This document shows positions 42,315 through 55,603 of a DNA stretch of 64,000 nucleotides, piece after piece. This DNA comes from Treponema brennaborense. GTDB lineage: Bacteria; Spirochaetota; Spirochaetia; Treponematales; Treponemataceae. Position 1 is the first letter of the stretch. Every line of letters starts with the position of its first letter. Location of the stretch: positions 1 through 64,000 of the forward strand of contig JAMPCJ010000005.1 in NCBI GenBank assembly GCA_023666275.1, given 5' to 3'. A program made the position numbers and the translations under genes. The notes beneath the pieces were generated by a model. That model was not told the DNA's origin. It ran no database searches and saw only the letters and a list, made by a program, of their open reading frames with translations.

Positions 42315-43415
42315 ATGGACAAATCAGAATATTTTTCCGACACGATACGCGCTGTCGATGCGAAATTCGAAGCGCAGAAAATTGCTTTCTCTCCGCTGAC
42401 TTTTCAGGCTGTGCGGGCAATGCTCGAAACAGGCATCTTGCGGAAAATATCGGACAGCGGAGACGAAGGCGCATCGGTCCGCGAAATCGCCGAATCCTGC
42501 GGACTTTCAGAATACGGAGTTTCTGTTCTTGCGGAAATGGCGCTTGGAATGAATATCGTAAAATTGTGCGGAGGCGGCAGCGAAACGCGGCTGACACTCG
42601 GAAAAACAGGCTGGTTTTTGCTTGAAGATGACATGACGCGGATCAATTTTGATTTTGTCAACGATATTTGCTATAAAGGCGCCTGGAATTTAACGGATTC
42701 CGTCAAAACCGGACGTCCTGAGGGATTAAAAGAGTTCGGCTCTTCCTGGACAACTATTTACGAAGCGCTTTCGTCCCTGCCGGAGCAGGCGAAAAAAAGC
42801 TGGTTTGCGTTTGATCATTTTTATTCCGATATTGCGTTCCCGGAAGCACTGCCGATTGTTTTTTCAAAAAATCCTTCATTGCTGCTTGATATCGGCGGCA
42901 ATACGGCAAAATGGGCAATCCGCTGCTGCGAATTCAATAAAAATGTGCGGGTTATTATTGCCGATTTGCCGGGACAAACTGCTTCTGCGGAAAAAAACGC
43001 GGCGGCGGCAGGTTTTTCCGATCGCATAACGACCAGTGCGGGAAACATTTTGAATGATAAGACCGTTTTGCCGCAGAGTGCGGACGCAGTATGGATGAGC
43101 CAGTTTTTGGATTGTTTTTCATTGCGGCAGATAACAAAAATCATGAAAAAAATCGCCGCAGCCGCAGATACGAAAACGGATATCTGGATTTTGGAACCGT
43201 TGTGGGATATGCAGAAATTCCGTGCGGCTTCATATTCATTGCAGGCAACATCGCTGTATTTCACCTGCATGGCGAACGGGAACAGCAAAATGTATTCTTT
43301 CGGGGAATTGACGGATGCCGTTGAAGCCGGCGGTTTTTCTCTTGTTGCGGCGCATCATAATCTCGGATCCAATAATTATTCTTTGCTGAATTTCAGAAAA
43401 GCAAAAAATGCATAG
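42315..43415 (+). CDS. SAM-dependent methyltransferase of the polyene-like cluster
   Basis: A 366-aa enzyme with an N-terminal winged-helix dimerisation part (ILRKISDSGDEGASVREIAE; LSEYGVSVLAEMAL) and a class I SAM domain (LLLDIGGNTAKWAIR near 190; IIADLPGQ; VWMSQFLDCFS). This is the layout of small-molecule O- or C-methyltransferases. Methyltransferases of this kind are regular members of aryl-polyene clusters, where they methylate the aryl head. It starts the cluster and lies 16 nt upstream of the chain-length-factor gene. The track of an upstream TTG at 42306 overlaps the promoter and is unlikely to be used. Confidence 0.83.
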   Translation: MDKSEYFSDTIRAVDAKFEAQKIAFSPLTFQAVRAMLETGILRKISDSGDEGASVREIAESCGLSEYGVSVLAEMALGMNIVKLCGGGSETRLTLGKTGWFLLEDDMTRINFDFVNDICYKGAWNLTDSVKTGRPEGLKEFGSSWTTIYEALSSLPEQAKKSWFAFDHFYSDIAFPEALPIVFSKNPSLLLDIGGNTAKWAIRCCEFNKNVRVIIADLPGQTASAEKNAAAAGFSDRITTSAGNILNDKTVLPQSADAVWMSQFLDCFSLRQITKIMKKIAAAADTKTDIWILEPLWDMQKFRAASYSLQATSLYFTCMANGNSKMYSFGELTDAVEAGGFSLVAAHHNLGSNNYSLLNFRKAKNA

Positions 43416-43431
43416 CGATACGGAATAAAAA

Positions 43432-44169
43432 ATGACGGAAAACGCAAAATCCGCGGCGGCTGTGTGGAATCCGAAAATTGCCGAAAAAATCGCAGTTACG
43501 AAATTTTCCGCCTGGGCACCGGGGCTCGGCGCGTTTGCTCAAAATCCCGCCGCATGGCATGAGTGGGCGGAAAACCGCCGGAGCATCGATATGACTGCTG
43601 AATCGCCGGCTATCCCGTTTGCGGATCCGCTTTTGCGGCGGCGTCTCAGCCAGCTTACAAAGATGACCGTACAAATCGTGCATGACGTTCTTCCGGATGC
43701 GGCGGATGCAAAAATGGTGTTTTCTTCGTTTCGAGGCGAAATAGCGCGGCAATTTTCTATAAACAAAATGCTCATAGAAGAACATTCTGTTATGCCCGCG
43801 TCGTTTTCGCTTTCTGTTTTCAACGCACCGCCGGCAATGGCGTCTATAATTCTCGGTTTGCAGTCAGGCTACAGCGCCGTATATCCCGCCGAAGATTCGA
43901 TTTTGTCCGCGATTGCGGCAGCAAGTGCGGCTATTGCGTCCGGCGCGGAACAGCGTGTTGTTTTTGTGTACGCGGATGAATGTATTCCCGAATTATACGG
44001 AACATTACGTCCGCAAGAACCTGCGCTGGCGTTCGCTGTTGTGCTTTCCGCATCCGATGCTTCGGGCGGCGAACAAGGAGCTGTTCCGCTGTTGTCTGTG
44101 CTGCCTGAAAAACATGCCGGTTCATTTTCTCCGGCGGATTTTTTGAAACGGCTTATTTTGCTGTGCTGA
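43432..44169 (+). CDS. Ketosynthase-like chain length factor (ApeC-like)
   Basis: A 245-aa protein similar to the N-terminal half of ketosynthases but without an active-site Cys; the matching region reads SVFNAPPAMASIILGLQ. Such half-size proteins pair with the real ketosynthase (ApeO type) in aryl-polyene synthases and set chain length. Other marks are FAQNPAAWHEWA and FSSFRGEIARQF. It is followed by a terminator, so it forms a two-gene unit with the methyltransferase, away from its presumed partner at 53056. Confidence 0.78.
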   Translation: MTENAKSAAAVWNPKIAEKIAVTKFSAWAPGLGAFAQNPAAWHEWAENRRSIDMTAESPAIPFADPLLRRRLSQLTKMTVQIVHDVLPDAADAKMVFSSFRGEIARQFSINKMLIEEHSVMPASFSLSVFNAPPAMASIILGLQSGYSAVYPAEDSILSAIAAASAAIASGAEQRVVFVYADECIPELYGTLRPQEPALAFAVVLSASDASGGEQGAVPLLSVLPEKHAGSFSPADFLKRLILLC

Positions 44170-44320: not shown

Positions 44321-44350
44321 TTGACTATTATGTTGACAATCTTGTATAAT
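44321..44350 (+). promoter_or_regulatory. Promoter of the ACP-to-ketoreductase transcript
   Basis: TTGACT (44321-44326), 18 nt, TATAAT (44345-44350). A second TTGACA at 44333 is too close to serve as -35. The leader is about 45 nt and includes the nine-G tract. Confidence 0.75.
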
Positions 44351-44380
44351 TAAGTAAAATTTTGTTTTTTTAAATTATGC

Positions 44381-44389
44381 GGGGGGGGG
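44381..44389 (+). repeat. Nine-G homopolymer tract before the ACP start
   Basis: A run of exactly nine G between the promoter and the ATG at 44402. An upstream ATG at 44377 reads into the tract. With nine G this frame ends at 44415, past the ACP start; with eight (or eleven) it would join the ACP frame. The tract may also act as a G-rich ribosome-binding region. Poly-G length change is a known phase-variation mechanism in Treponema. Confidence 0.9.
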
Positions 44390-44401
44390 ACAGCGCTTCT
44401 T

Positions 44402-44686
44402 ATGGACGAACTTAAACAGCAAATAAAAGAAGTTATCATCAGCGCTTTGGAACTCGAAGATATACGGCCGGAGCATATCGCCGACGATGAACCGTTGTTC
44501 GGCGAGGGACTCGGCTTGGATTCTATAGACGCATTGGAACTGGGCGTTGCACTGAAGAAAAAATTCGGCGTGAAATTTTCCGCGGAAAGTGCGGACAATA
44601 GAAAACATTTTGCGTCTGTTGATGCGCTGGCGCAGTTCATCATTGCGGAAAGAGCCGCATCAGAGGGAAATCAACAGCTTCCGTGA
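44402..44686 (+). CDS. Acyl carrier protein of the polyene-like cluster
   Basis: A 94-aa carrier protein. The phosphopantetheine Ser is Ser41 in GLGLDSIDALEL; helices II and III look normal (KKFGVKF; SVDALAQFIIAE). It would hold the growing polyene. Aryl-polyene clusters usually encode two carriers (ApeE and ApeF); only one is found here. It opens a long run of tightly packed genes reaching 55603. No phosphopantetheinyl transferase gene is in the window. Confidence 0.93.
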   Translation: MDELKQQIKEVIISALELEDIRPEHIADDEPLFGEGLGLDSIDALELGVALKKKFGVKFSAESADNRKHFASVDALAQFIIAERAASEGNQQLP

Positions 44687-44722
44687 AAAACAAATTGTCC
44701 GCTGCATTTTTTTCGAAGAAAT

Positions 44723-47053
44723 ATGCGTAAGATAGCCGCGCCGCTTTTTTATTTGTTTGCCGCGTTATATCCGGCTGTTGTTTTTGTGCTTTTGGTGCTG
44801 CTGAAAATTCCTGCCCGCGTTATTTCTTTATGCATCATGTTTTTTTGCGGATGCATGTTTTTGGCGGCAACATCCGGAAAAAAACGCAGCCGGCACATAA
44901 AGTTTTTGCTGTCTTCTGCTGTGCTGTTTGTGCTTGGAACCGCGTGCTGCATTTCCGGCGCCGATATTTTCCTGAAGCTGTATCCGGTTTTGATAAACGG
45001 AATGCTGCTCGGCTTTTTTTCGTTTTCGCTTGTATCGCCGCCGACGGTTATATTCCGTTTGGCGGTGATGCAGAAACCGTCTATACGCGGTTCTATTGCC
45101 GCTAAAAGAGTAGAGGCGTATTGTTTCCGCGTTACGCTGATATGGTGCGCGTTTTTTCTGCTGAACGGAACAGCCGCAGCGTACACAGTATTTTGTGCAT
45201 CGGGAACTGCCTGGTCGGTATATAACGGCGGCATTTCCTACGCGCTGATGGGATTGCTTTTTGCCGGAGAATTTATGGTCAGAAGGATTGTTGACAAAAA
45301 AATGCCCGTATCTGTTCCTTTTTCGCAGTTTGCCGCGAATTCGCACGCGCCTGACATGGTTGTGTGCTATGAAAAAAAATGGTCGGACGGCTGTGTTCTC
45401 ACTTGGAATGATTTCCTTATCGATTCCGCCAAACTAAGACAGTTTATCAATGCGCCGGAACACAGCGGATCGGATTCCTGGATTCTTCATTGCGATGACT
45501 ATTATTATTTTTTGGCTGCGTTCACTGCGCTTCTGCAATGCGGAAAAAAAATTCTGCTTACCGCGAATATTTCGCCGGCGTTTATTGCGGAAATTCAGAC
45601 AGATGCTTCGATACGCTTTTTAACCGATCAGAATATTTCCGGGGCGGATTTTGTGCCGGATATTTTGGATAATGCCGCCGCGCCATCCGAAGCCGAAAGA
45701 AATACAACGCCCGCCATAATCGCGGATGAAACGCATATTATCATGTATACTTCCGGCTCGACCGGGCATCCGAAGCAAGTGCATCAGCGGCTGACCGAAT
45801 TTGAAACGGATAATGCGTTCGTGCTGTCAAAATGGGGCGACGAATTCCTCAAGCGGAAATTATGTTCTACCGTCAGCCAGCATCATATTTACGGACTGCT
45901 GTTCGGCATTTTGCTGCCTTTTACGGCCGGCGTTCCGTTTCGGCGCAAGCGTATTGTGTATCCGGAAGAATTCGAAACGCTCACCGATGATTCTTATATG
46001 ATTATTGCAACGCCCGCGTTTTTGAAACGTTCCGTAGAAGCGGAACACAATGCGCTGCATTTGAATTCCTGCTGGATTTTTACTTCGGGCGGAGTTCTTA
46101 CAAAAGAAATCGCGGAAGCCTCGTATCATACATTCGGATTTTGGCCGCTCGAAGTATACGGCAGCACCGAAACAAGCGGCATTGCGTATCGTCAGTCCAA
46201 AAACGGACTTTCCTGGACGCCTTTCGACAATGCGGAAATATGGAAAAATGAAGACGGCTGTCTTGTTGTCCGTTCGCCGTATATACAAGATCCCGCAGGT
46301 TTTGTTACCGGCGATCTTATCGAAATGCAGGAAAACGGACAATTCCTGTTAAAAGGGCGCGCGGATTCTATCGTAAAAATAGAAGAAAAACGCATTTCTG
46401 TTACGGAAGTCGAAAACAGAATTCTTCAATCCGGTTTTGTTTCCGATGTATGCGTGGTGCCTATAACGGAAAAGCGTCAATATCTTGCTGCCGCGATTGT
46501 GCTTAATGAAGCCGGCAGACAAAAATTCAAAGATACCGAAAAATATTTGATAAACCGTTTTTTCCGCAATTATACGGCGCAGTTTTTTGAAGCTGTCGTG
46601 CTGCCGAGAAAATGGCGCTATCTCGATGCGATTCCCGCCGATGTTCAGGGAAAAAAGAAAAAGCAGGAAATTCAATCGTTGTTTGTACCGGAAAACGGAC
46701 ACGGCATTCCGTGCGAACAGCTTGTCAGAAAAACCGATGCCGCTGCCGATATTGCGGTTTTTATTCCGGCGGAAAGCGATTATTTTGACGGCCATTTTCC
46801 CGATTATCCGCTGCTTTCGGCGGCAGCGCAAATCGATCTTGCCGCGCATTTTGCCGATCGGTATTTCGGCGCCGGAAAAATCGTGCCGGATATAAAACGA
46901 TGCAAATTTATTTCTCCGATAAAACCCGATGCATCGCTGTTAATTCATCTGGAATACAGAGCGGACAGCGGAACTTTGTCATTTGCCTATGCAGCGCCGG
47001 ATGAAAATACGCTTTTTTCTTCCGGAACTTTAACTGTCAAGGATGAAGCATGA
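44723..47053 (+). CDS. Fusion: membrane domain, acyl-AMP ligase and hotdog dehydratase (ApeG-H-I-like)
   Basis: A 776-aa three-part protein. Residues 1 to about 205 are five to six membrane segments resembling the small COG4648/ApeG protein. Residues about 210-650 are an adenylate-forming ligase with YTSGSTGHPKQ (near 341), VYGSTETSGI and TGDLIEMQENGQFLLKGR; it would activate the aryl starter acid and load it on the ACP. Residues about 665-776 are a hotdog domain (YFDGHFPDYPLLSAAAQ, near 688) like the ApeI dehydratase. In most aryl-polyene clusters these are separate genes. GAAGAA precedes the ATG, and the end overlaps the next gene as ATGA. Confidence 0.85.
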   Translation: MRKIAAPLFYLFAALYPAVVFVLLVLLKIPARVISLCIMFFCGCMFLAATSGKKRSRHIKFLLSSAVLFVLGTACCISGADIFLKLYPVLINGMLLGFFSFSLVSPPTVIFRLAVMQKPSIRGSIAAKRVEAYCFRVTLIWCAFFLLNGTAAAYTVFCASGTAWSVYNGGISYALMGLLFAGEFMVRRIVDKKMPVSVPFSQFAANSHAPDMVVCYEKKWSDGCVLTWNDFLIDSAKLRQFINAPEHSGSDSWILHCDDYYYFLAAFTALLQCGKKILLTANISPAFIAEIQTDASIRFLTDQNISGADFVPDILDNAAAPSEAERNTTPAIIADETHIIMYTSGSTGHPKQVHQRLTEFETDNAFVLSKWGDEFLKRKLCSTVSQHHIYGLLFGILLPFTAGVPFRRKRIVYPEEFETLTDDSYMIIATPAFLKRSVEAEHNALHLNSCWIFTSGGVLTKEIAEASYHTFGFWPLEVYGSTETSGIAYRQSKNGLSWTPFDNAEIWKNEDGCLVVRSPYIQDPAGFVTGDLIEMQENGQFLLKGRADSIVKIEEKRISVTEVENRILQSGFVSDVCVVPITEKRQYLAAAIVLNEAGRQKFKDTEKYLINRFFRNYTAQFFEAVVLPRKWRYLDAIPADVQGKKKKQEIQSLFVPENGHGIPCEQLVRKTDAAADIAVFIPAESDYFDGHFPDYPLLSAAAQIDLAAHFADRYFGAGKIVPDIKRCKFISPIKPDASLLIHLEYRADSGTLSFAYAAPDENTLFSSGTLTVKDEA

Positions 47054-47796
47054 CACAGGGATTTATCATTCCCGTGTACAATCACGGAAAACCGGCGGCT
47101 GCCGTAACGGAAAATCTTTTGCGCTTCGAGATTCCTATTATTTTAATTGATGACGGCAGCGGCGCGGAAACAAAAGAAATTCTGCACGGACTTGCGGAAA
47201 AATATTCCTGCGTCAATCTTGTAACACTTGACCGCAACCGCGGCAAAGGCGGTGCGGTTTGCGCCGGAATAGATCGCGCGAAACAGCTGGGATTGACGCA
47301 TGTTCTGCAAATCGATGCGGACGCCCAGCATGACATAAGCCGTGCGGAATTTTTTCTTGAACAGTCTAAAATGTTTCCGCAGCGAATGATTTGCGCCTAT
47401 CCCGATTTCGATGATTCCGTTCCTGCCAGCCGCAAAAACGGGCGCAAGCTCGCGAATTTCATGGCGCGTTTAATAACGCTTTCGTCTGATATAACGGACT
47501 GCATGTGCGGTTTCCGCGTGTATCCGGTTTCCGTTGCATACGACTTGATTCATCGTTATCGGTTTGACATGCGGATGGGCTTTGACATCCAGATTTTAAT
47601 ATATCTTCATTGGCAGGGAATTCCGTTTTCGTTTTATCCGGTACGCGTCGTGTATCCCGCCGGCGGTATTTCGCATTTTCATCTTGTGCGGGATAATGTC
47701 CGCATTATTTTTGTGTTTGCGAAATGTTTTTTCGGCATGATTATGCGCTTCCCGTATTTTTTGGTTAGGAAATTGAAAAGGCGGTGCACGGCATGA
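47050..47796 (+). CDS. Family 2 glycosyltransferase
   Basis: A 248-aa GT-A enzyme. It shows FIIPVYNHGKP, LIDDGSGAET, NRGKGGAVCAG, the metal-binding DADAQHD (near 95) and CGFRVYPVS. In aryl-polyene clusters such a transferase is thought to help build the sugar or lipid anchor of the pigment; it is often fused to the acyltransferase that here follows as a separate gene. It overlaps both neighbours by 4 nt (ATGA), indicating tight co-translation. Confidence 0.88.
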   Translation: MTQGFIIPVYNHGKPAAAVTENLLRFEIPIILIDDGSGAETKEILHGLAEKYSCVNLVTLDRNRGKGGAVCAGIDRAKQLGLTHVLQIDADAQHDISRAEFFLEQSKMFPQRMICAYPDFDDSVPASRKNGRKLANFMARLITLSSDITDCMCGFRVYPVSVAYDLIHRYRFDMRMGFDIQILIYLHWQGIPFSFYPVRVVYPAGGISHFHLVRDNVRIIFVFAKCFFGMIMRFPYFLVRKLKRRCTA

Positions 47797-48821
47797 AATA
47801 TTCTTCCTCTCATGCATTGAATTGTTTCGCGTCTTCCCGCCCCTGCCGCCGGCACGGAGAAAAACATTGGTCCGAACGCCGTGAACTTGTAACCGGTTAT
47901 ACGTGTTATAAAATAGTACTTTTGATTTTCAGAACACTGCCGCCGACGCTTATGCGGATACTTGCGCTTCCGGTAAGTTTTTTTTATTTTCTGTTTGCCG
48001 GAAAAGCGCGTGCCGCTTCGAAAAAATTTCTGCGCCGCGTAAAACCGCAGTGCGATGCTCCGAAAAAAATTTTTTTGAATCCGCTGAAACATTTCGCTGC
48101 GTTTTCATTGACTATAGTTGAAAAAATACAGGGATGGGGCGGGAAAATTCAATTTGAAAATATTCATTTTCAGCGGGACGACATAGACAATCTCGTTTAC
48201 GAATTGGAAAACGGCCGCGGTGCGCTGCTTATTTGTTCGCATTTGGGAAATGCGGAATTACTGCGCGCGCTTGCCAGCTATGATCGCACGGGCGTTTCGC
48301 GCAGTGTGCCGGTTATATCGATAGTTGATTTTTCCTGCAACGCGTATTTCAACAGAATGCTTCGGGAACTTAATCCGGATTCTATGATGCATATTATCAG
48401 CGCGGACGATGTAGGACCGGAAACAATTATTCAGCTGCAGGAACAAATTGCAGGCGGCGGGCTTGTTGTTATTGCGGGCGACAGAACTTCTGCCAATACG
48501 CGCGATCGGTATTTAACGATTCCTTTTTTGGGGTTCGATGCGCCGTTTGCGTACGGTCCGTATTTGCTTGCTTCACTGCTTAACGCGTCCGTGTATTTTG
48601 TGTTTGCGCTGCGCACGAAAGATGCCGGCATTTTCCCCGAATACGATATGCACGTTCACAAAAATCAAATTTCGTTTGACTGTCAGCGCAAAGAACGAGA
48701 AACACGCATCCGCAGCACTGCCGAAAATTTCGTGCATTATCTTGAATATTACAGCCGGAAGTATCCCTGCCAGTGGTACAATTTTTTTGATTTTTGGGCT
48801 TTCCCGGAAACGTTGATATGA
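47793..48821 (+). CDS. LpxL/HtrB-like lipid acyltransferase
   Basis: A 342-aa membrane-associated acyltransferase. After a hydrophobic segment (PPTLMRILALPVSFFYFLF) comes the region around LLICSHLGNAELLRALA, where the catalytic H-x4-D/E is represented by HLGNAE, then VVIAGDRTSANTRDRYLTIPFLG. It would transfer an acyl (perhaps polyenoyl) chain to the anchor lipid. Treponemes lack classical LPS, so a lipid A role is unlikely. The ATG at 47793 overlaps the glycosyltransferase stop as ATGA. Confidence 0.85.
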   Translation: MKYSSSHALNCFASSRPCRRHGEKHWSERRELVTGYTCYKIVLLIFRTLPPTLMRILALPVSFFYFLFAGKARAASKKFLRRVKPQCDAPKKIFLNPLKHFAAFSLTIVEKIQGWGGKIQFENIHFQRDDIDNLVYELENGRGALLICSHLGNAELLRALASYDRTGVSRSVPVISIVDFSCNAYFNRMLRELNPDSMMHIISADDVGPETIIQLQEQIAGGGLVVIAGDRTSANTRDRYLTIPFLGFDAPFAYGPYLLASLLNASVYFVFALRTKDAGIFPEYDMHVHKNQISFDCQRKERETRIRSTAENFVHYLEYYSRKYPCQWYNFFDFWAFPETLI

Positions 48822-49270
48822 CAAATGAATTGGATCCGCGTGTGCTCGCGGCGGAAATAGAATTTTCCGTGGAATTTTACGAAGTCGATTCTATGAAAAT
48901 CGCCTGGCATGGAAATTATATCCAGTATTTCGAACGTGCCCGCTGTGCGCTGCTTGATAAAATCGGTTATGATTATAATCAAATGGAACAAAGCGGTTTT
49001 GCTTTTCCCGTTGTCGATGTCCGAGTGAAATATATTCGTCCGCTGCGTTTTAAGGATCGAGTGCGGGCAAAAGCAACGCTTGCCGAATATGAAAATCGGC
49101 TGCGCATACAATTCGAACTGCGCAATGCGGCAACCGGAGAACTCGCAACAACCGGTTCCGTAACGCAGATGGCAGTCTGCATGGGAACAGGAGAAACCTG
49201 TTTTGTGTGTCCCGAAATTTTTACGAAAAAAGTAGAATCGCTGATCCGTCAGGGAGGGTTTCCGCAGTGA
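48818..49270 (+). CDS. 4HBT-type acyl thioesterase (ApeK-like)
   Basis: A 150-aa hotdog thioesterase. The signature is VEFYEVDSMKIAWHGNYIQY, where the acidic residue and H-x-N-Y belong to the active site, followed by FERARCALLDKIGYDY. It may release or edit chains during polyene synthesis. The start overlaps the acyltransferase stop (ATGA), and its own stop overlaps the next start (GTGA). Confidence 0.9.
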   Translation: MTNELDPRVLAAEIEFSVEFYEVDSMKIAWHGNYIQYFERARCALLDKIGYDYNQMEQSGFAFPVVDVRVKYIRPLRFKDRVRAKATLAEYENRLRIQFELRNAATGELATTGSVTQMAVCMGTGETCFVCPEIFTKKVESLIRQGGFPQ

Positions 49271-49956
49271 AAATCGGAAAGAACTTTAATTTGTCTGCAA
49301 TTGTTCCCGCGCATGCATGTTTGTTTTTATTGTTTGCACTATTTGTTCCGACGGAAAATATGTATGCGGATGTTTTTTCGTTCCCGCTGACGGATGAGTC
49401 GGAGCCGGCTTTTCGGGAAGTATGTGCGGCGATTTCCGGCAAACCGATTGTAAAAGGCTGTTTTATCCAAAAAAAAACAATTGCGCGCTTGAATAAAAAT
49501 TTTATTTCTTCCGGAGAGTTTGTCATATCCGCAGAAGACGGCATTATTTGGAACACAAAAAATCCGTATCCCTCTGCGGCTGTGATAACGGAAAACAGTA
49601 TTATACAAATTTCCGCGGACGGAAAAAGAACCGGCATTCAAGCTGCGGGAAACGGCGCCTTTGATTATTTTTCGCAGATAATCGGCGCGCTGTTCACCGG
49701 AAACGCCGCCTTGCTGCGGGAAAATTTTGCCATGTATTTTGAAGCGGCAGACAACGGCAGCTGGATTTGCGGATTTATTCCGCGCGATGAAATGATTCGT
49801 TCGTTTGCCGCGCAAATTGTTTTGTCCGGCAGCGATACCATACGCAGCTTGCTGCTGCATGAAAAAAACGGCGACAGCATCGGCTATGAGCTGTCTGATC
49901 ATGTGTTTGCTTCGGAACTGACGGATGATGAAAAAGCATTTTTTACCGAAGACTGA
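49267..49956 (+). CDS. LolA-like periplasmic carrier
   Basis: A 229-aa protein with a signal peptide (FLLFALFVPTENMYA region) and a LolA-type beta fold (GCFIQKKTIARLNKNFISSGEF; DGIIWNTKNPYPSAAVIT; FTGNAALLRENFAMYFE). LolA-like proteins in these clusters probably ferry the lipid-linked pigment across the periplasm. The start is GTG at 49267 with GGGAGGG upstream; the longer frame has no such site. It overlaps the exporter gene by 32 nt. Confidence 0.82.
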   Translation: MKIGKNFNLSAIVPAHACLFLLFALFVPTENMYADVFSFPLTDESEPAFREVCAAISGKPIVKGCFIQKKTIARLNKNFISSGEFVISAEDGIIWNTKNPYPSAAVITENSIIQISADGKRTGIQAAGNGAFDYFSQIIGALFTGNAALLRENFAMYFEAADNGSWICGFIPRDEMIRSFAAQIVLSGSDTIRSLLLHEKNGDSIGYELSDHVFASELTDDEKAFFTED

Positions 49957-52429
49957 ATCGCCTGCGTGTATATATGTTCCGCTGGCAATTTGGTGTTTAT
50001 TATATGCTGCCGTAATAATAATTTTTGTTTGTTCATTGTTCCGCACGCAGGATATTCACATTGATTCGAATCTTGCGGATATACTTCCGCCGTCGCACGC
50101 GCTGAAAAATGTTGCTTCTGCGGATGCAGCGTTCAGTTCGAAAAATGCGCGCAGTATTGTGATTTTTTCTGCGCATCGGGATTTTTCCGCTGCAAAAGCT
50201 GCCATGGAAAAATTGTACAATGAATGCAAACATGAAAGTTTTTTTGAAAGCATTATGCTGTACGCAGATGCTTCTGCTGCCGCGCAGATTTCCGATTTTT
50301 TATTTGAGTGGCGGTATAACTTGATTGATGATGAAACTGCTGCGCGGCTTGAACGCGGCGAGGCGGACAAAATTGCGCAGGAAGCGCTTGCCGCTGTTTT
50401 CGGCGGATTTGCTTTTTCCGATTTTTCTCATCTGGAAGAAGATCCTTTTTTGCTGACAGATAAAAATATGCGGATTTTTCTTAATGCCGCGCTTATGTCC
50501 GGTGCAGGACTGTTTGTAAAAGACGGCGTGCTTGCCGCAAATCACGAAGGTATATGGTATGTTATGCTCCGCGGAGTACTTTCCGAAAAAAGCACATCCG
50601 TTGCGAATAAACAAAGCGCGGTAAAATATATTTATAAATCCTGCGCGGAAATTCAAGAAAATGCCGCACGAGAAGCAGCATATAATAATGGCACTGCGGA
50701 AACAAACGATGCATTCTTTGCGCCGGAATTTTTTTACACGGGAATACCGTTTCATAGTTATGAGAGTTCATCTTCTGCTCAAAAAGAAATTTCTATTATC
50801 TCTTCCATTGCTATGGTGCTGGTAATTTGCATATTTTTGTGCGTATTCCGCAGTTTGTTCCCTGCGTTTGTTTCTGCATTCGCGGTGCTTCTTTCGTGCG
50901 TATTTGCTTGTGTTTCTGCGCTTTTGATTTTCAGAAAAATTCATTTGCTTACATTTGTGTTCGGTACGACGCTTATCGGAACATGTCTCGATTATTCGAT
51001 TCATTTTTTTGCGTACCGAAAAGATTTTTCGGTTTTGAAAAACGGCGGCAGTATTCGATCGCACATTTTCCGCGGCATCGGTATCAGTTTTTTGTCTACG
51101 GAAATATGCTGCGCGGCTCTTGCATTGGCGCCGTTTCCGCTGTTAAAGCAGGTTGCTGTTTTTCTTGCCGCCGGATTGCTTTGTGCTTTTTCGTGCGTTG
51201 TCTGCGTATATCCGTGTTTCGAAAATCGTGCTGTTCCTAAAAGAAAATATTTCCCCGAAAAATTTTTCCGTTTGCCTCTTTCATTTGTTTTGCGGAAAAA
51301 TATTTTTTTTGCCGGCATAAAAAAAACAGTGCGGCGCTTCCGATTATCTCCGCGAATGACAGCGGCATTGCCGGCCGCGGCTGCGCTGATTGTTTTGCTG
51401 TGCTGCAAAAATTCCGTCCGCATCGAAAACAATATCAGGAATTTATATAAAATGCCTGAACATCTTTTGCGCTCGGAACGGACAGCTTCGGAGATTTTTC
51501 AAACGAAAACTTCCGGATGGTATTTTTTGATTGAAGGCATTTCTCCGAATGATGTTCTGCTGCGCGAAGAACAATTGTGCCGCCGAATTGCGGAAGAACT
51601 CCCCGAAACGGATGCACGGAATTATGCTGCCGTATCGCGGTTTATTCCGTCCGAACAAAAACAGCGCCGCAGTTATGCCGCCGCACAGCAATTGCTGCCT
51701 GCCACTTTAAAACAATATGAAGCGCTCGGATTCTCCGCAGCGGAAGAAAAAGAATTGCGCCGCGGTTTTGAATCTGCCGCAGGGAAATTCTGTCCGCCGC
51801 CGAATTCTTCGAGAACAAACTTTCCCGATGTAATTGCCGCCGCCGTTGATAATTTATGGATCGGACAATGCGGCGAATTATATTATTCCTGCGTGATGCC
51901 GTTTTCTTCGGAAAATGAAGATGTGCTTCGCAGCATTGCGGAAACAGAGGAACATGTATATTTTGTAAATAAATCGAAAGACATAAATAAGGAACTTGAT
52001 TCGCTGACGGCGGCTATGCTGAAATTGCTTGCTTTGGCATTTGCGGTGATAACAGCGATGCTCGTATATTTGTATCCGCTGAAAACTGCGCTGTCGATTG
52101 CCGCTGCGCCGTTGTTTGCCGGATTGATAACCGCCGCGGTTCTCGCTGCCTGCGGTGCTGCTGTCGGATTTTTTTCGGCGACCGGTTTTGTTCTTGTGTT
52201 CGGGCTTGGACTTGATTATATTATCTACAATGTGGAAGGACGAAAATCCGATGCGGAAAAAACGACGCGTTCCGCAGTGCTGCTTTCATATATAACAACA
52301 GCACTTTCTTTCGGCGCGCTGTCGCTGACCGGTTTTGCGCCGGTTCATATATTCGGACTGACAGTATGCGTCGGTTTGACGGCGGCGTTCGTTTTTCCGT
52401 TATTGCTTGCAAGTCAGGAGAAAGAATGA
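49925..52429 (+). CDS. MMPL/RND family exporter
   Basis: An 834-aa inner-membrane pump with about 12 segments in two similar halves, each with a large periplasmic loop (about 45-270 and 500-680). Sterol-sensing-like regions are FVFGTTLIGTCLDYSIHFFAY (near 345) and ATGFVLVFGLGLDYIIYNVEG (near 757), with Asp residues typical for proton coupling. It most likely extracts the pigment lipid and passes it to the LolA-like protein. ATG at 49925, with a second ATG directly after; the end overlaps the lipoprotein gene as ATGA. Confidence 0.9.
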   Translation: MMKKHFLPKTESPACIYVPLAIWCLLYAAVIIIFVCSLFRTQDIHIDSNLADILPPSHALKNVASADAAFSSKNARSIVIFSAHRDFSAAKAAMEKLYNECKHESFFESIMLYADASAAAQISDFLFEWRYNLIDDETAARLERGEADKIAQEALAAVFGGFAFSDFSHLEEDPFLLTDKNMRIFLNAALMSGAGLFVKDGVLAANHEGIWYVMLRGVLSEKSTSVANKQSAVKYIYKSCAEIQENAAREAAYNNGTAETNDAFFAPEFFYTGIPFHSYESSSSAQKEISIISSIAMVLVICIFLCVFRSLFPAFVSAFAVLLSCVFACVSALLIFRKIHLLTFVFGTTLIGTCLDYSIHFFAYRKDFSVLKNGGSIRSHIFRGIGISFLSTEICCAALALAPFPLLKQVAVFLAAGLLCAFSCVVCVYPCFENRAVPKRKYFPEKFFRLPLSFVLRKNIFFAGIKKTVRRFRLSPRMTAALPAAAALIVLLCCKNSVRIENNIRNLYKMPEHLLRSERTASEIFQTKTSGWYFLIEGISPNDVLLREEQLCRRIAEELPETDARNYAAVSRFIPSEQKQRRSYAAAQQLLPATLKQYEALGFSAAEEKELRRGFESAAGKFCPPPNSSRTNFPDVIAAAVDNLWIGQCGELYYSCVMPFSSENEDVLRSIAETEEHVYFVNKSKDINKELDSLTAAMLKLLALAFAVITAMLVYLYPLKTALSIAAAPLFAGLITAAVLAACGAAVGFFSATGFVLVFGLGLDYIIYNVEGRKSDAEKTTRSAVLLSYITTALSFGALSLTGFAPVHIFGLTVCVGLTAAFVFPLLLASQEKE

Positions 52430-53034
52430 ATGTAAAACATGCCGCGGCATTTCTCGGTGCGGGAATTTTATTGTTATTCGCCGCATCGTGCGGAGCAACC
52501 GGAAAAAATATTGCGGAAACTTATCCCGCCGCGGAAAAATCCGTTTCTGTGCGTCTGTCCGGAAAATCCGTTTATACGCTTTTGCCGGTGCGCTGCATGG
52601 AAGGAAGCATTGACGGCGTACAGCACATATCGGCGTCTTTCGGAAATAAATCTTTTTCTGCCGATGCGTTTGTGCAGTCTGACGCTGAAAAACTTTTTAT
52701 AATTGTATTCAATAATTTCGGCAGCACCATGGCGGAAATCGAATACGCCGGCAATGCGGTTTCTTTATATTCGGCAATGCTTCCTGATTTTATTAAACCG
52801 GAATATATAATTGCCGATTTTCAATTTTGCTTTTATGAAGTATCTTCTGTTTCTGCTGCGCTTTGCAAAAGCGGATTGACGCTGAAAACTGCGCACGAAA
52901 ACGAAACCGAAATTCGCCGTATATATAACGGGAAAAAATTGATAATCGAAATAAAAAAAAGCGGCGCATTTGCAGAGTATTCGAATTATGCGCGGGGATA
53001 TTTTTACAAGCTGAACGGCGATTATCCGAAATAA
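52426..53034 (+). CDS. DUF3261-like lipoprotein
   Basis: A 202-aa probable outer-membrane lipoprotein with a lipobox ending LLLFAASC (Cys22). The mature part is beta-rich and ends with RRIYNGKKLIIEIKKSG. Its position after an MMPL exporter, and its size, match the DUF3261 proteins of aryl-polyene clusters, which may receive the lipid at the outer membrane. AGGAG precedes the ATG. Confidence 0.78.
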   Translation: MNVKHAAAFLGAGILLLFAASCGATGKNIAETYPAAEKSVSVRLSGKSVYTLLPVRCMEGSIDGVQHISASFGNKSFSADAFVQSDAEKLFIIVFNNFGSTMAEIEYAGNAVSLYSAMLPDFIKPEYIIADFQFCFYEVSSVSAALCKSGLTLKTAHENETEIRRIYNGKKLIIEIKKSGAFAEYSNYARGYFYKLNGDYPK

Positions 53035-53055
53035 GTTCAATCGGAAAGGTTCTGA

Positions 53056-54264
53056 ATGCTGCAAAAAACTAACACGGAAATTTATCTTTCAAATCCCGGC
53101 GTCTTATGCTGTGCGGGAAATTCTCTGTCTGCGCTGTCTGCCGCGGCGGCTGCCGCAAGCACAGAAGGCATTGGCGAAACAGAATGCTGCGGAAAAAATT
53201 TTTTCGTCGGACGAATCGATGATCGTTTTATTCCGCCCTCCGATGACCGATTTGACATGAGGATTTTGCGCATTGTTGCCGCCGCACTTGAACAAATCCG
53301 TCCGGCGGTTGAAAAAGCGAAATCACGATACGGTGCGGATCGAATCGGCGTGTGCATCGGTTCCTGTGATAACGGTTCCGAATTGTCATTGGAAGCGCAC
53401 CGCTCGTTTTTTGCGGCAAAGTCTTTTCCGAAAAATTATCGGCTTGAAATTCAAGGCGCGTCATATCCCGCTTCGTTTGTTTCCCGCATTTGCGGTGTTT
53501 CCGGAATTTCACTCGCATTTTCGACAGCGTGTTCGTCTTCTGCGAGTGCTTTGGCAAAAGCGCGTCAGCTTATTCTCGGCGGACTGTGCGATGCGGTTAT
53601 TGCGGGCGGTGCGGATATTGTTTCGCAGACAGTGCTGCTGGGCTTTGATTCTTTGCAGACGGTGTCGGAAAAAATTTGCAATCCGTTCAGCAAAAACCGC
53701 AGCGGCATTACGCTTGGCGAAGGCGCCGCATTTTTTCTTCTTGCAAAAGACGATACAGACGGTTCCGGTATTGTGCTTGCCGGCTGCGGAGAAAGCGCCG
53801 ATGCGTCGCATATTACATCACCGCGTGCGGACGGATACGGTGCGCAGACAGCTATGAATGCAGCGCTGGCGGATGCGGATGTTCTTCCCGGCTGCATCGA
53901 TTATGTGAATTTGCATGGAACGGGAACCGTGCTCAATGACAGCATGGAAGCGGCAGCTGTTGCTTCGGTATTTCCTGCCGATGTAATTGTCAGTTCCACA
54001 AAACCGATAACAGGCCATACGCTTGGCGCTGCCGGTGCGCTTGAACTTGCGCTTTGCATGTCGAGCATGCAGCAGCGCATTCTGCCCTGCCATTGCTGGG
54101 ATGGAATGCAAGATCCGCTGCTGCCGCGTTTGAATTTTGCGCATCAAAATCACGCGCTTCCTGCTGTTCGATATTGCATGAGCAATTCGTTTGCATTCGG
54201 CGGCTGCAATGTCAGTTTGATTATACGAAATATTCGTTGCCGGAACGGAAATCTTCCGTTTTGA
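53056..54264 (+). CDS. Beta-ketoacyl-ACP synthase (ApeO-like)
   Basis: A 402-aa condensing enzyme that elongates the polyene with malonyl-ACP. The catalytic triad is complete: Cys in AFSTACSSSASALAKAR (near 158), His in NLHGTGTVLND (near 286) and His in KPITGHTLGAAGALEL (near 320). The C-terminal NSFAFGGCNVSLI is typical. It probably dimerises with the half-size chain length factor encoded at 43432. Only one full ketosynthase is present; many aryl-polyene clusters have a second (ApeR). Confidence 0.93.
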   Translation: MLQKTNTEIYLSNPGVLCCAGNSLSALSAAAAAASTEGIGETECCGKNFFVGRIDDRFIPPSDDRFDMRILRIVAAALEQIRPAVEKAKSRYGADRIGVCIGSCDNGSELSLEAHRSFFAAKSFPKNYRLEIQGASYPASFVSRICGVSGISLAFSTACSSSASALAKARQLILGGLCDAVIAGGADIVSQTVLLGFDSLQTVSEKICNPFSKNRSGITLGEGAAFFLLAKDDTDGSGIVLAGCGESADASHITSPRADGYGAQTAMNAALADADVLPGCIDYVNLHGTGTVLNDSMEAAAVASVFPADVIVSSTKPITGHTLGAAGALELALCMSSMQQRILPCHCWDGMQDPLLPRLNFAHQNHALPAVRYCMSNSFAFGGCNVSLIIRNIRCRNGNLPF

Positions 54265-54312
54265 ATACGCGCTGCCGGACATGAATAATCATATCATTTG
54301 CAGAGGTTCCCG

Positions 54313-54840
54313 ATGATCATTTCAAATGACTGTATTGCAAATCTTGTGCCGCATAAAGGAAAAATGCTTCTTTTGAACAGAATTGTATTTTTCGATACAA
54401 AAGAAGGACTGCTTGTTTCGGAAAGCGATATTTCTGCGGACTGGCTGTTTTACGATGCCGCGCTTTCGGGTGTGCCGTCCTGGGTTTCTTTTGAACTCAT
54501 GGCGCAGAGCATCGCGGCTTTGAACGGCATTGCGGAGCGGGAAAAAACAGCACGCGCTTCTGCCTGCGGTTCGCCGCCGGCGTTCGGCACAGATGCTTTT
54601 TGTTCCGCGCCGGATTTTCTTTCCCGCAGTGATATGATAAAACCGAAAACAGGATTTATCGTAAGCATTTCCGCAATGCACTTTTCGGTGCCGGTTTTGA
54701 CCGTCGGTTCCGCCGTGCGGACGGAAGTTCTCATCGAATGCAGGGATAACAATGTCTGTTCATTTACGGGCACGGTAACGCAAAACGGCATTGAAGCGGG
54801 GTGCGGCAGACTTGTTGCCGCGGAACACGAAAGCAAATAA
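54313..54840 (+). CDS. Hotdog-fold 3-hydroxyacyl dehydratase (ApeP-like)
   Basis: A 175-aa protein similar to the second dehydratase of aryl-polyene synthases. Features are LVPHKGKMLLLNRIV near the N-terminus (family His) and PSWVSFELMAQSIAALNG around 55-72. It would remove water to create each double bond, possibly together with the hotdog domain of the fusion protein. AGAGG lies 7 nt before the ATG at 54313; the TTG at 54298 is less likely. Confidence 0.85.
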   Translation: MIISNDCIANLVPHKGKMLLLNRIVFFDTKEGLLVSESDISADWLFYDAALSGVPSWVSFELMAQSIAALNGIAEREKTARASACGSPPAFGTDAFCSAPDFLSRSDMIKPKTGFIVSISAMHFSVPVLTVGSAVRTEVLIECRDNNVCSFTGTVTQNGIEAGCGRLVAAEHESK

Positions 54841-54871
54841 TTCGGGAACAAATACGGCAAACGGAGTATGT

Positions 54872-55603
54872 ATGGAATGTGAAAAAAAAGTGCTGATTAC
54901 CGGAGCATCCGGCGGAATAGGTCGTGCAGTTGCGCTTTCGGCAGCGTCGGCAGGTTTCGGCGTTGTTGTACATTGCAATCGCGCAAAAGAGCGTGCGGAA
55001 GAAGCTGCGGATATGATTGCCGCAGCAGGCGGATGCGCCGAAGTTTTGCAGTTTGATATTGCGGACAGACAGGATTGCGCGGAAAAACTGAATGCTTGGG
55101 TAGAAAAAAACGGCGCGCCTTGGGGCGTTGTTTGCTGTGCGGGAATATGCCGCGACAACGTATTTCCCGCTTTAAGCGCCGATGATTGGGATTCCGTACT
55201 CCGCGTAAATCTGGATGGTTTTTACAATGTTCTGAATCCGCTTGTAATGCCGATGTGCCGTCGCCGCCGCGGCCGGATAATCACAATTTCTTCCGTGTCC
55301 GGCATTATGGGAAATTACGGTCAGGTGAATTACAGTGCGGCAAAGGCGGGAATTATCGGCGCGACAAAAGCACTCGCCGCGGAACTTGCGGGACGATCCA
55401 TTACCGTAAATTGCATCGCGCCGGGGTTTATCGATACCGATATGACAGCTTCTGTGCCGGCAGCTGACGCAATCCTTCGGCAAATTCCGATGCGGCGTGC
55501 CGGAAAGCCGGAAGAAGTCGCAGCGGCTGCGGTTTTTCTGCTTTCCGATGCGGCGTCATATATTACCCGTCAGGTTATTTCCGTGAACGGCGGCTTGATA
55601 TAA
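54872..55603 (+). CDS. 3-oxoacyl-ACP reductase (ApeQ/FabG-like)
   Basis: A 243-aa short-chain dehydrogenase. NAD(P)H binding is by TGASGGIGRAVALS, and the catalytic Ser, Tyr and Lys are in ISSVSGIMGNYGQVNYSAAKAG. It reduces the ketoacyl-ACP after each condensation. The GGAG 5 nt before the ATG at 54872 fixes the start. It is the last gene of the cluster; the next gene is convergent. I see no clear terminator in the 128 nt between them. Confidence 0.93.
   Translation: MECEKKVLITGASGGIGRAVALSAASAGFGVVVHCNRAKERAEEAADMIAAAGGCAEVLQFDIADRQDCAEKLNAWVEKNGAPWGVVCCAGICRDNVFPALSADDWDSVLRVNLDGFYNVLNPLVMPMCRRRRGRIITISSVSGIMGNYGQVNYSAAKAGIIGATKALAAELAGRSITVNCIAPGFIDTDMTASVPAADAILRQIPMRRAGKPEEVAAAAVFLLSDAASYITRQVISVNGGLI

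Follow-up and report, generated by a model that had tools for sequence, protein, structure and literature searches.

A homopolymer of nine guanines (G9) was identified in the leader of an acyl carrier protein (ACP) gene, within what is, by its gene content, an aryl-polyene cluster for which a pigment is predicted. The window referred to below is the whole stretch of 64,000 nucleotides that was analysed, being bases 1-64000 of contig 14 in an assembly of 2.35 Mb. The tract is a real feature of an ordinary class, the poly-G contingency tract, with an unusual target, a pigment carrier protein. An even chance was given to the leading explanation, in which the G9 is a contingency tract whose length shifts the amount of ACP, and hence of polyene pigment, most probably at the level of translation and through a short reading frame that opens at position 44377. 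What we see directly is how the sequence is arranged, how many such tracts the genome carries and where, and which cluster this is; that the ACP tract slips, that ribosomes use the upstream ATG and that pigment is affected are what we infer. The features concerned are listed in Table 1.

Table 1. Position and supporting evidence for features of the ACP leader and the aryl-polyene cluster.
Feature	Position	Strand	Evidence
Upstream aryl-polyene genes: methyltransferase, N-terminal ketosynthase domain	42315..44169	+	Pfam; gene calls
Predicted promoter P1, TTGACT-18-TATAAT	44321..44350	+	Sigma-70-like consensus scan, 11/12; prediction only
Predicted promoter P2, TTGACA-16-TAAAAT	44333..44360	+	Sigma-70-like consensus scan, 11/12; prediction only
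Short frame from the upstream ATG, 12 codons long at G9, reading through the tract	44377..44415	+	Sequence as read, translated at G6-G12
G9 tract, candidate slipped-strand contingency tract	44381..44389	+	Direct read; sole G/C run >5 in the window
ApeE-like ACP at the head of the downstream aryl-polyene operon	44402..44686	+	Pfam PF00550, E=4.1e-10
Acyl/aryl-ACP ligase fused to ApeI-like dehydratase	44723..47053	+	Pfam AMP-binding and ApeI-like
Rest of the likely operon	47050..55603	+	Pfam; close packing on the same strand

Direct reading of the sequence gave an upstream ATG (44377-44379), a single C (44380), the G9 (44381-44389), ACAGCGCTTCTT and then the ATG of the ACP at 44402. Translation from the upstream ATG produced MRGGDSASYGRT, terminated by TAA at 44413-44415; the G9 and the 12-codon frame from 44377 to 44415 were therefore exactly as the earlier note had described them. 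When the tract was varied from G6 to G12, the upstream frame overran the ACP start by 14 nt at G6, G9 and G12, and by 25 nt at G7 and G10, where it was 15 and 16 codons long respectively. Only at G8 and G11 was the 44377 ATG joined in frame to the ACP. The fusion at G8 (MRGGTALL-MDELK...) had an extension of eight residues, while that at G11 had nine; in-frame fusion on loss of one G or gain of two was as the earlier note had it. The tract is long enough for slippage (8 or more), and is placed where a change of length can alter transcription or translation, that is, 12 nt before the ACP ATG and with fusion at G8 and G11. No Shine-Dalgarno match was found before the upstream ATG, which has a U-rich leader; in an E. 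coli system, poly-U leaders did fairly well in vitro, and a poly-G leader of 18 nt performed badly as a ribosome-binding site (PMC3310771). An Rfam search of the ACP leader for an RNA element returned no match up to E=1.

The ACP is of the ApeE type, with an intact phosphopantetheine site, and lies beside genes for ligase, ketosynthase (KS), ketoreductase (KR), dehydratase and export. It is separated from the upstream aryl-polyene genes by a gap of 232 nt and likely heads an operon, because closely packed genes on the same strand continue to ~55.6 kb. After the ligase, these encode a glycosyltransferase, an acyltransferase, a thioesterase, a LolA-like protein, an RND-type exporter (identified by position), a DUF3261 protein, a ketosynthase, a dehydratase-like protein and a ketoreductase. 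The order of genes, from the methyltransferase and KS-like gene through ACP, ligase, GT/AT, TE, LolA, exporter, DUF3261, KS and KR, resembled that of known aryl-polyene clusters (PMC8253772); the differences were the absence of a second ACP, the fusion of ligase to an ApeI-like domain, and the poly-G in the ACP leader. The nearest homologues of the ACP belong to Treponema and further spirochaete genomes. Its identity to the ACPs of other spirochaete clusters was 63-80%, with the same start methionine throughout, and the eight-residue extension was absent from these relatives, whose ACPs all begin at that residue. In most of the relatives' clusters a second ACP directly follows the first, which is not so at 44402-47053, and homology searching found no second ACP in the window. 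Scanning the genome with the ketosynthase-like protein encoded upstream gave no hit. In E. coli, pigment is abolished when the ApeE ACP is lost; the other ACP, ApeF, can in part be dispensed with and is missing from some clusters (PMC8253772). As an ApeE-type carrier with no second ACP in the window, the ACP is therefore a plausible control point.

The G9 belongs to a large set of similar tracts. Exact counts of G runs across the genome were 19 for G6, 4 for G7, 26 for G8, 35 for G9, 8 for G10 and 2 for G11. There were 71 runs of 8-11 G, against ~1.6 expected for runs of at least 8 when the fall-off in number of the window's short runs was extrapolated. The dip at G7 and the peak at G8-G9 mark a separate class of tract, and this bimodal distribution represents an excess beyond base composition. 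Within the window there were 9694 single G, 41 runs of length 4 and one of length 5, and then the G9 alone; no other run of G or C exceeded 5. The placement of the 71 tracts was judged from the stretches read around each, using a simple gene caller based on codon usage. This showed that 39 of the 71 were outside called genes, compared with 9% of window positions (binomial tail 3e-22), although this figure is inflated because genes broken by an out-of-frame tract are counted as intergenic. Similarly, 46 tracts were no more than 150 bp from a called start, where 26% were expected (binomial tail 9e-12), and nine fell within -35/-10 spacers, which account for 3% of intergenic positions.

Three layouts were seen. 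Tracts within a -35/-10 spacer, typically TTGACA-CTA-C9-GTGC-TATAAA, preceded outer-membrane barrel and other surface genes. Others, many of them within the first codons, occurred in signal peptides, both of lipoproteins (BspA-type LRR) and of enzymes of the surface or envelope (pectate lyase, cellulase); the reading frame there depends on tract length, and not every copy is in frame. In the third layout, the tract lies a few bases before a start codon, as in the ACP (12 nt), a SIMPL gene (L068; 7 nt) and a CDP-glycerol glycerophosphotransferase gene (L080; 7 nt). In both of the latter a G8 stands exactly 7 nt before an in-frame ATG; a second ATG was also observed just upstream of the G8 (L068:2051-2066 and L080:2025-2040), an arrangement like that at the ACP. 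Lipoprotein paralogues with near-identical flanks carried G8, G9 or G10, and tract length therefore does change in this lineage, an indication of real slippage. On the evidence of sequence, the 71 tracts show the pattern of a poly-G phase-variation set and, with the ACP tract among them, the pigment is probably switchable. The suggestion that slippage could tune the ACP thereby gained partial, indirect support from tracts at promoters and gene starts across the genome, while the mechanisms first proposed for it were weaker. Elsewhere, a G9 (2032-2040) was observed a few codons after the start of a cas6 CRISPR gene (L078:1107-2060, minus strand), in frame as assembled, making this cas6 a possible phase-variable CRISPR component. 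At L071, L073 and L113, contigs start or stop at, or no more than ~25 nt from, a poly-G tract in the signal peptide of a lipoprotein, and so more copies may be missing from the assembly. Among other genomes of the family and order, the number of G9 windows ranged from none to over three hundred.

A leader tract conserved among relatives was rejected for the loci read: no run of at least six G was present in the 130 nt preceding the ACP start in any of 7 loci from the family and order search, nor in any of 25 further loci. Overall, ~28 other spirochaete ACP loci are without a leader tract. Since none of the ACP leaders read in other spirochaetes has poly-G, the tract is private to this genome and probably a recent gain. 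In 26 related cluster regions (~373 kb), two tracts of at least 8 G overlapped cluster genes and one more lay outside them, which was not clearly above background; no enrichment of tracts specific to aryl-polyene clusters in spirochaetes is claimed. The two in cluster genes are a G14 in the aryl-polyene ligase gene of another spirochaete (L136:3657-3670), close to which the ligase match shifts frame, and, in a third spirochaete, a C9 in the aryl-polyene methyltransferase gene that is in frame as assembled (L137:2218-2226).

Under the leading explanation, the G9 would change in length through slipped-strand mispairing at replication. As it is predicted to be transcribed with the leader and sits where translation of the ApeE-type ACP begins, it would then shift the amount of ACP and, in turn, of pigment. 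At G9 and G10, ribosomes from the 44377 ATG would run past the ACP start and mask it; at G8 and G11 they would instead make ACP with a short extension. As a weak and distant Shine-Dalgarno sequence, the run of G may add a smaller, graded effect, together with local RNA structure. The G9 was the sole Shine-Dalgarno-like match before the ACP, as the earlier note had it in placing the tract at the ribosome-binding position, but its 12-nt spacing from the ATG is long and its predicted strength depends little on length. In a crude energy model, this strength saturated at ~7 G and was nearly flat from G7 to G11, so that one G more or less would change little by this route; a Shine-Dalgarno sequence with length-dependent strength near G9 was accordingly rejected. 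Because that prediction is flat, the 44377 frame, if used, is the sole strongly length-dependent route visible in the sequence. In a combined version, regarded as rather doubtful, the same G tract would serve the ACP as its ribosome-binding element and also be what slips in the overlapping frame, with one phase in three giving high ACP and pigment.

The main rival to the 44377 route is an effect on transcription, in which slippage of the tract would alter events in the initial transcribed region (promoter escape, RNA polymerase slippage or mRNA stability), producing graded ACP without a role for the upstream frame. From the predicted promoters, the tract would begin ~14-24 nt after the transcription starts, within the transcribed leader, which is consistent with such an effect; the promoter matches themselves were not above those in shuffled sequence (2 vs 1.3 +/- 1.2). 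Poly-G upstream of an ORF gives graded changes in transcription at uspA1 of Moraxella catarrhalis (PMC7302503), and tprL of Treponema pallidum was more active with G8 than with G10 in a reporter (PMC7864442). However, the ACP tract is neither in a -35/-10 spacer nor upstream of the predicted start. No fitting pair of hexamers was found around it on either strand, and so a spacer tract of the porA type was rejected. In the tpr type, the tract is at or upstream of the start and overlaps the -10, while the predicted ACP promoters place it downstream, the start position being a prediction only. The porA layout therefore does not apply to the tract and, if the start lies where predicted, the tpr layout would not do so either. 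The transcriptional effect was thought unlikely.

Equally unlikely was the view that the tract serves mainly as the Shine-Dalgarno sequence of the ACP, by G-rich pairing with CCUCC, its length being incidental and a single G hardly mattering. There is no other such match before the ACP, no gene called in the window had a stronger one (-10.6 kcal/mol), the spacing of G8 in the SIMPL and glycerophosphotransferase genes suits this role, and a leader with GGGCGGGGG occurs in one relative. Against this stand the long spacing at the ACP and the fact that runs of 8-11 G are far commoner than those of 6 or 7, which a plain Shine-Dalgarno function leaves unexplained. It is least probable, and indeed very unlikely, that the tract is a neutral, chance product of a lineage-wide tendency to G runs, fixed or varying without effect. 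Its restriction to this genome agrees with neutrality, as does the finding that aryl-polyene clusters as a class show no obvious richness in tracts, but the tracts of this genome are placed at starts and promoters in a strongly non-random manner.

The tract has parallels in known contingency loci. It resembles those of T. pallidum tprL, tprE/F/G/I/J and tp0126 in being a homopolymer of G8-11 near a gene start in a treponeme; in T. pallidum, the length of such tracts is variable in vivo (PMC7864442). The T. pallidum tracts lie at or upstream of mapped starts and serve outer-membrane targets, whereas the ACP tract is predicted to lie downstream and has a biosynthetic target. The parallel with tpr genes drawn in the earlier note was consequently sound for the type of tract but not for its position, the tprL tract being upstream of its mapped transcription start (PMC7864442). 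M. catarrhalis uspA1 also has a G tract upstream of its ORF, with lengths of 9-12 and graded output reported (PMC7302503); that target is an adhesin for which a change of output was shown. The porA-type spacer tract of Neisseria is likewise a poly-G/C contingency tract, and its layout was seen in this genome at L063, L064, L076 and L092; the ACP tract differs in lying outside a promoter spacer.

Aryl polyene is an envelope pigment that has been linked in E. coli to biofilm formation and to protection against oxidative stress (PMC8253772). A literature search combining phase variation and aryl polyenes returned papers with neither term in title or abstract. If the explanation is true, a whole pathway of secondary metabolism would be stochastic, set by one tract before its only dedicated carrier protein. 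A switch in the start region would make the pigment a phase-variable form of bet-hedging, and the same layout could act in the SIMPL and glycerophosphotransferase genes. More broadly, dozens of envelope genes in this little-studied relative are probably subject to poly-G switching, most work on which has been done in T. pallidum.
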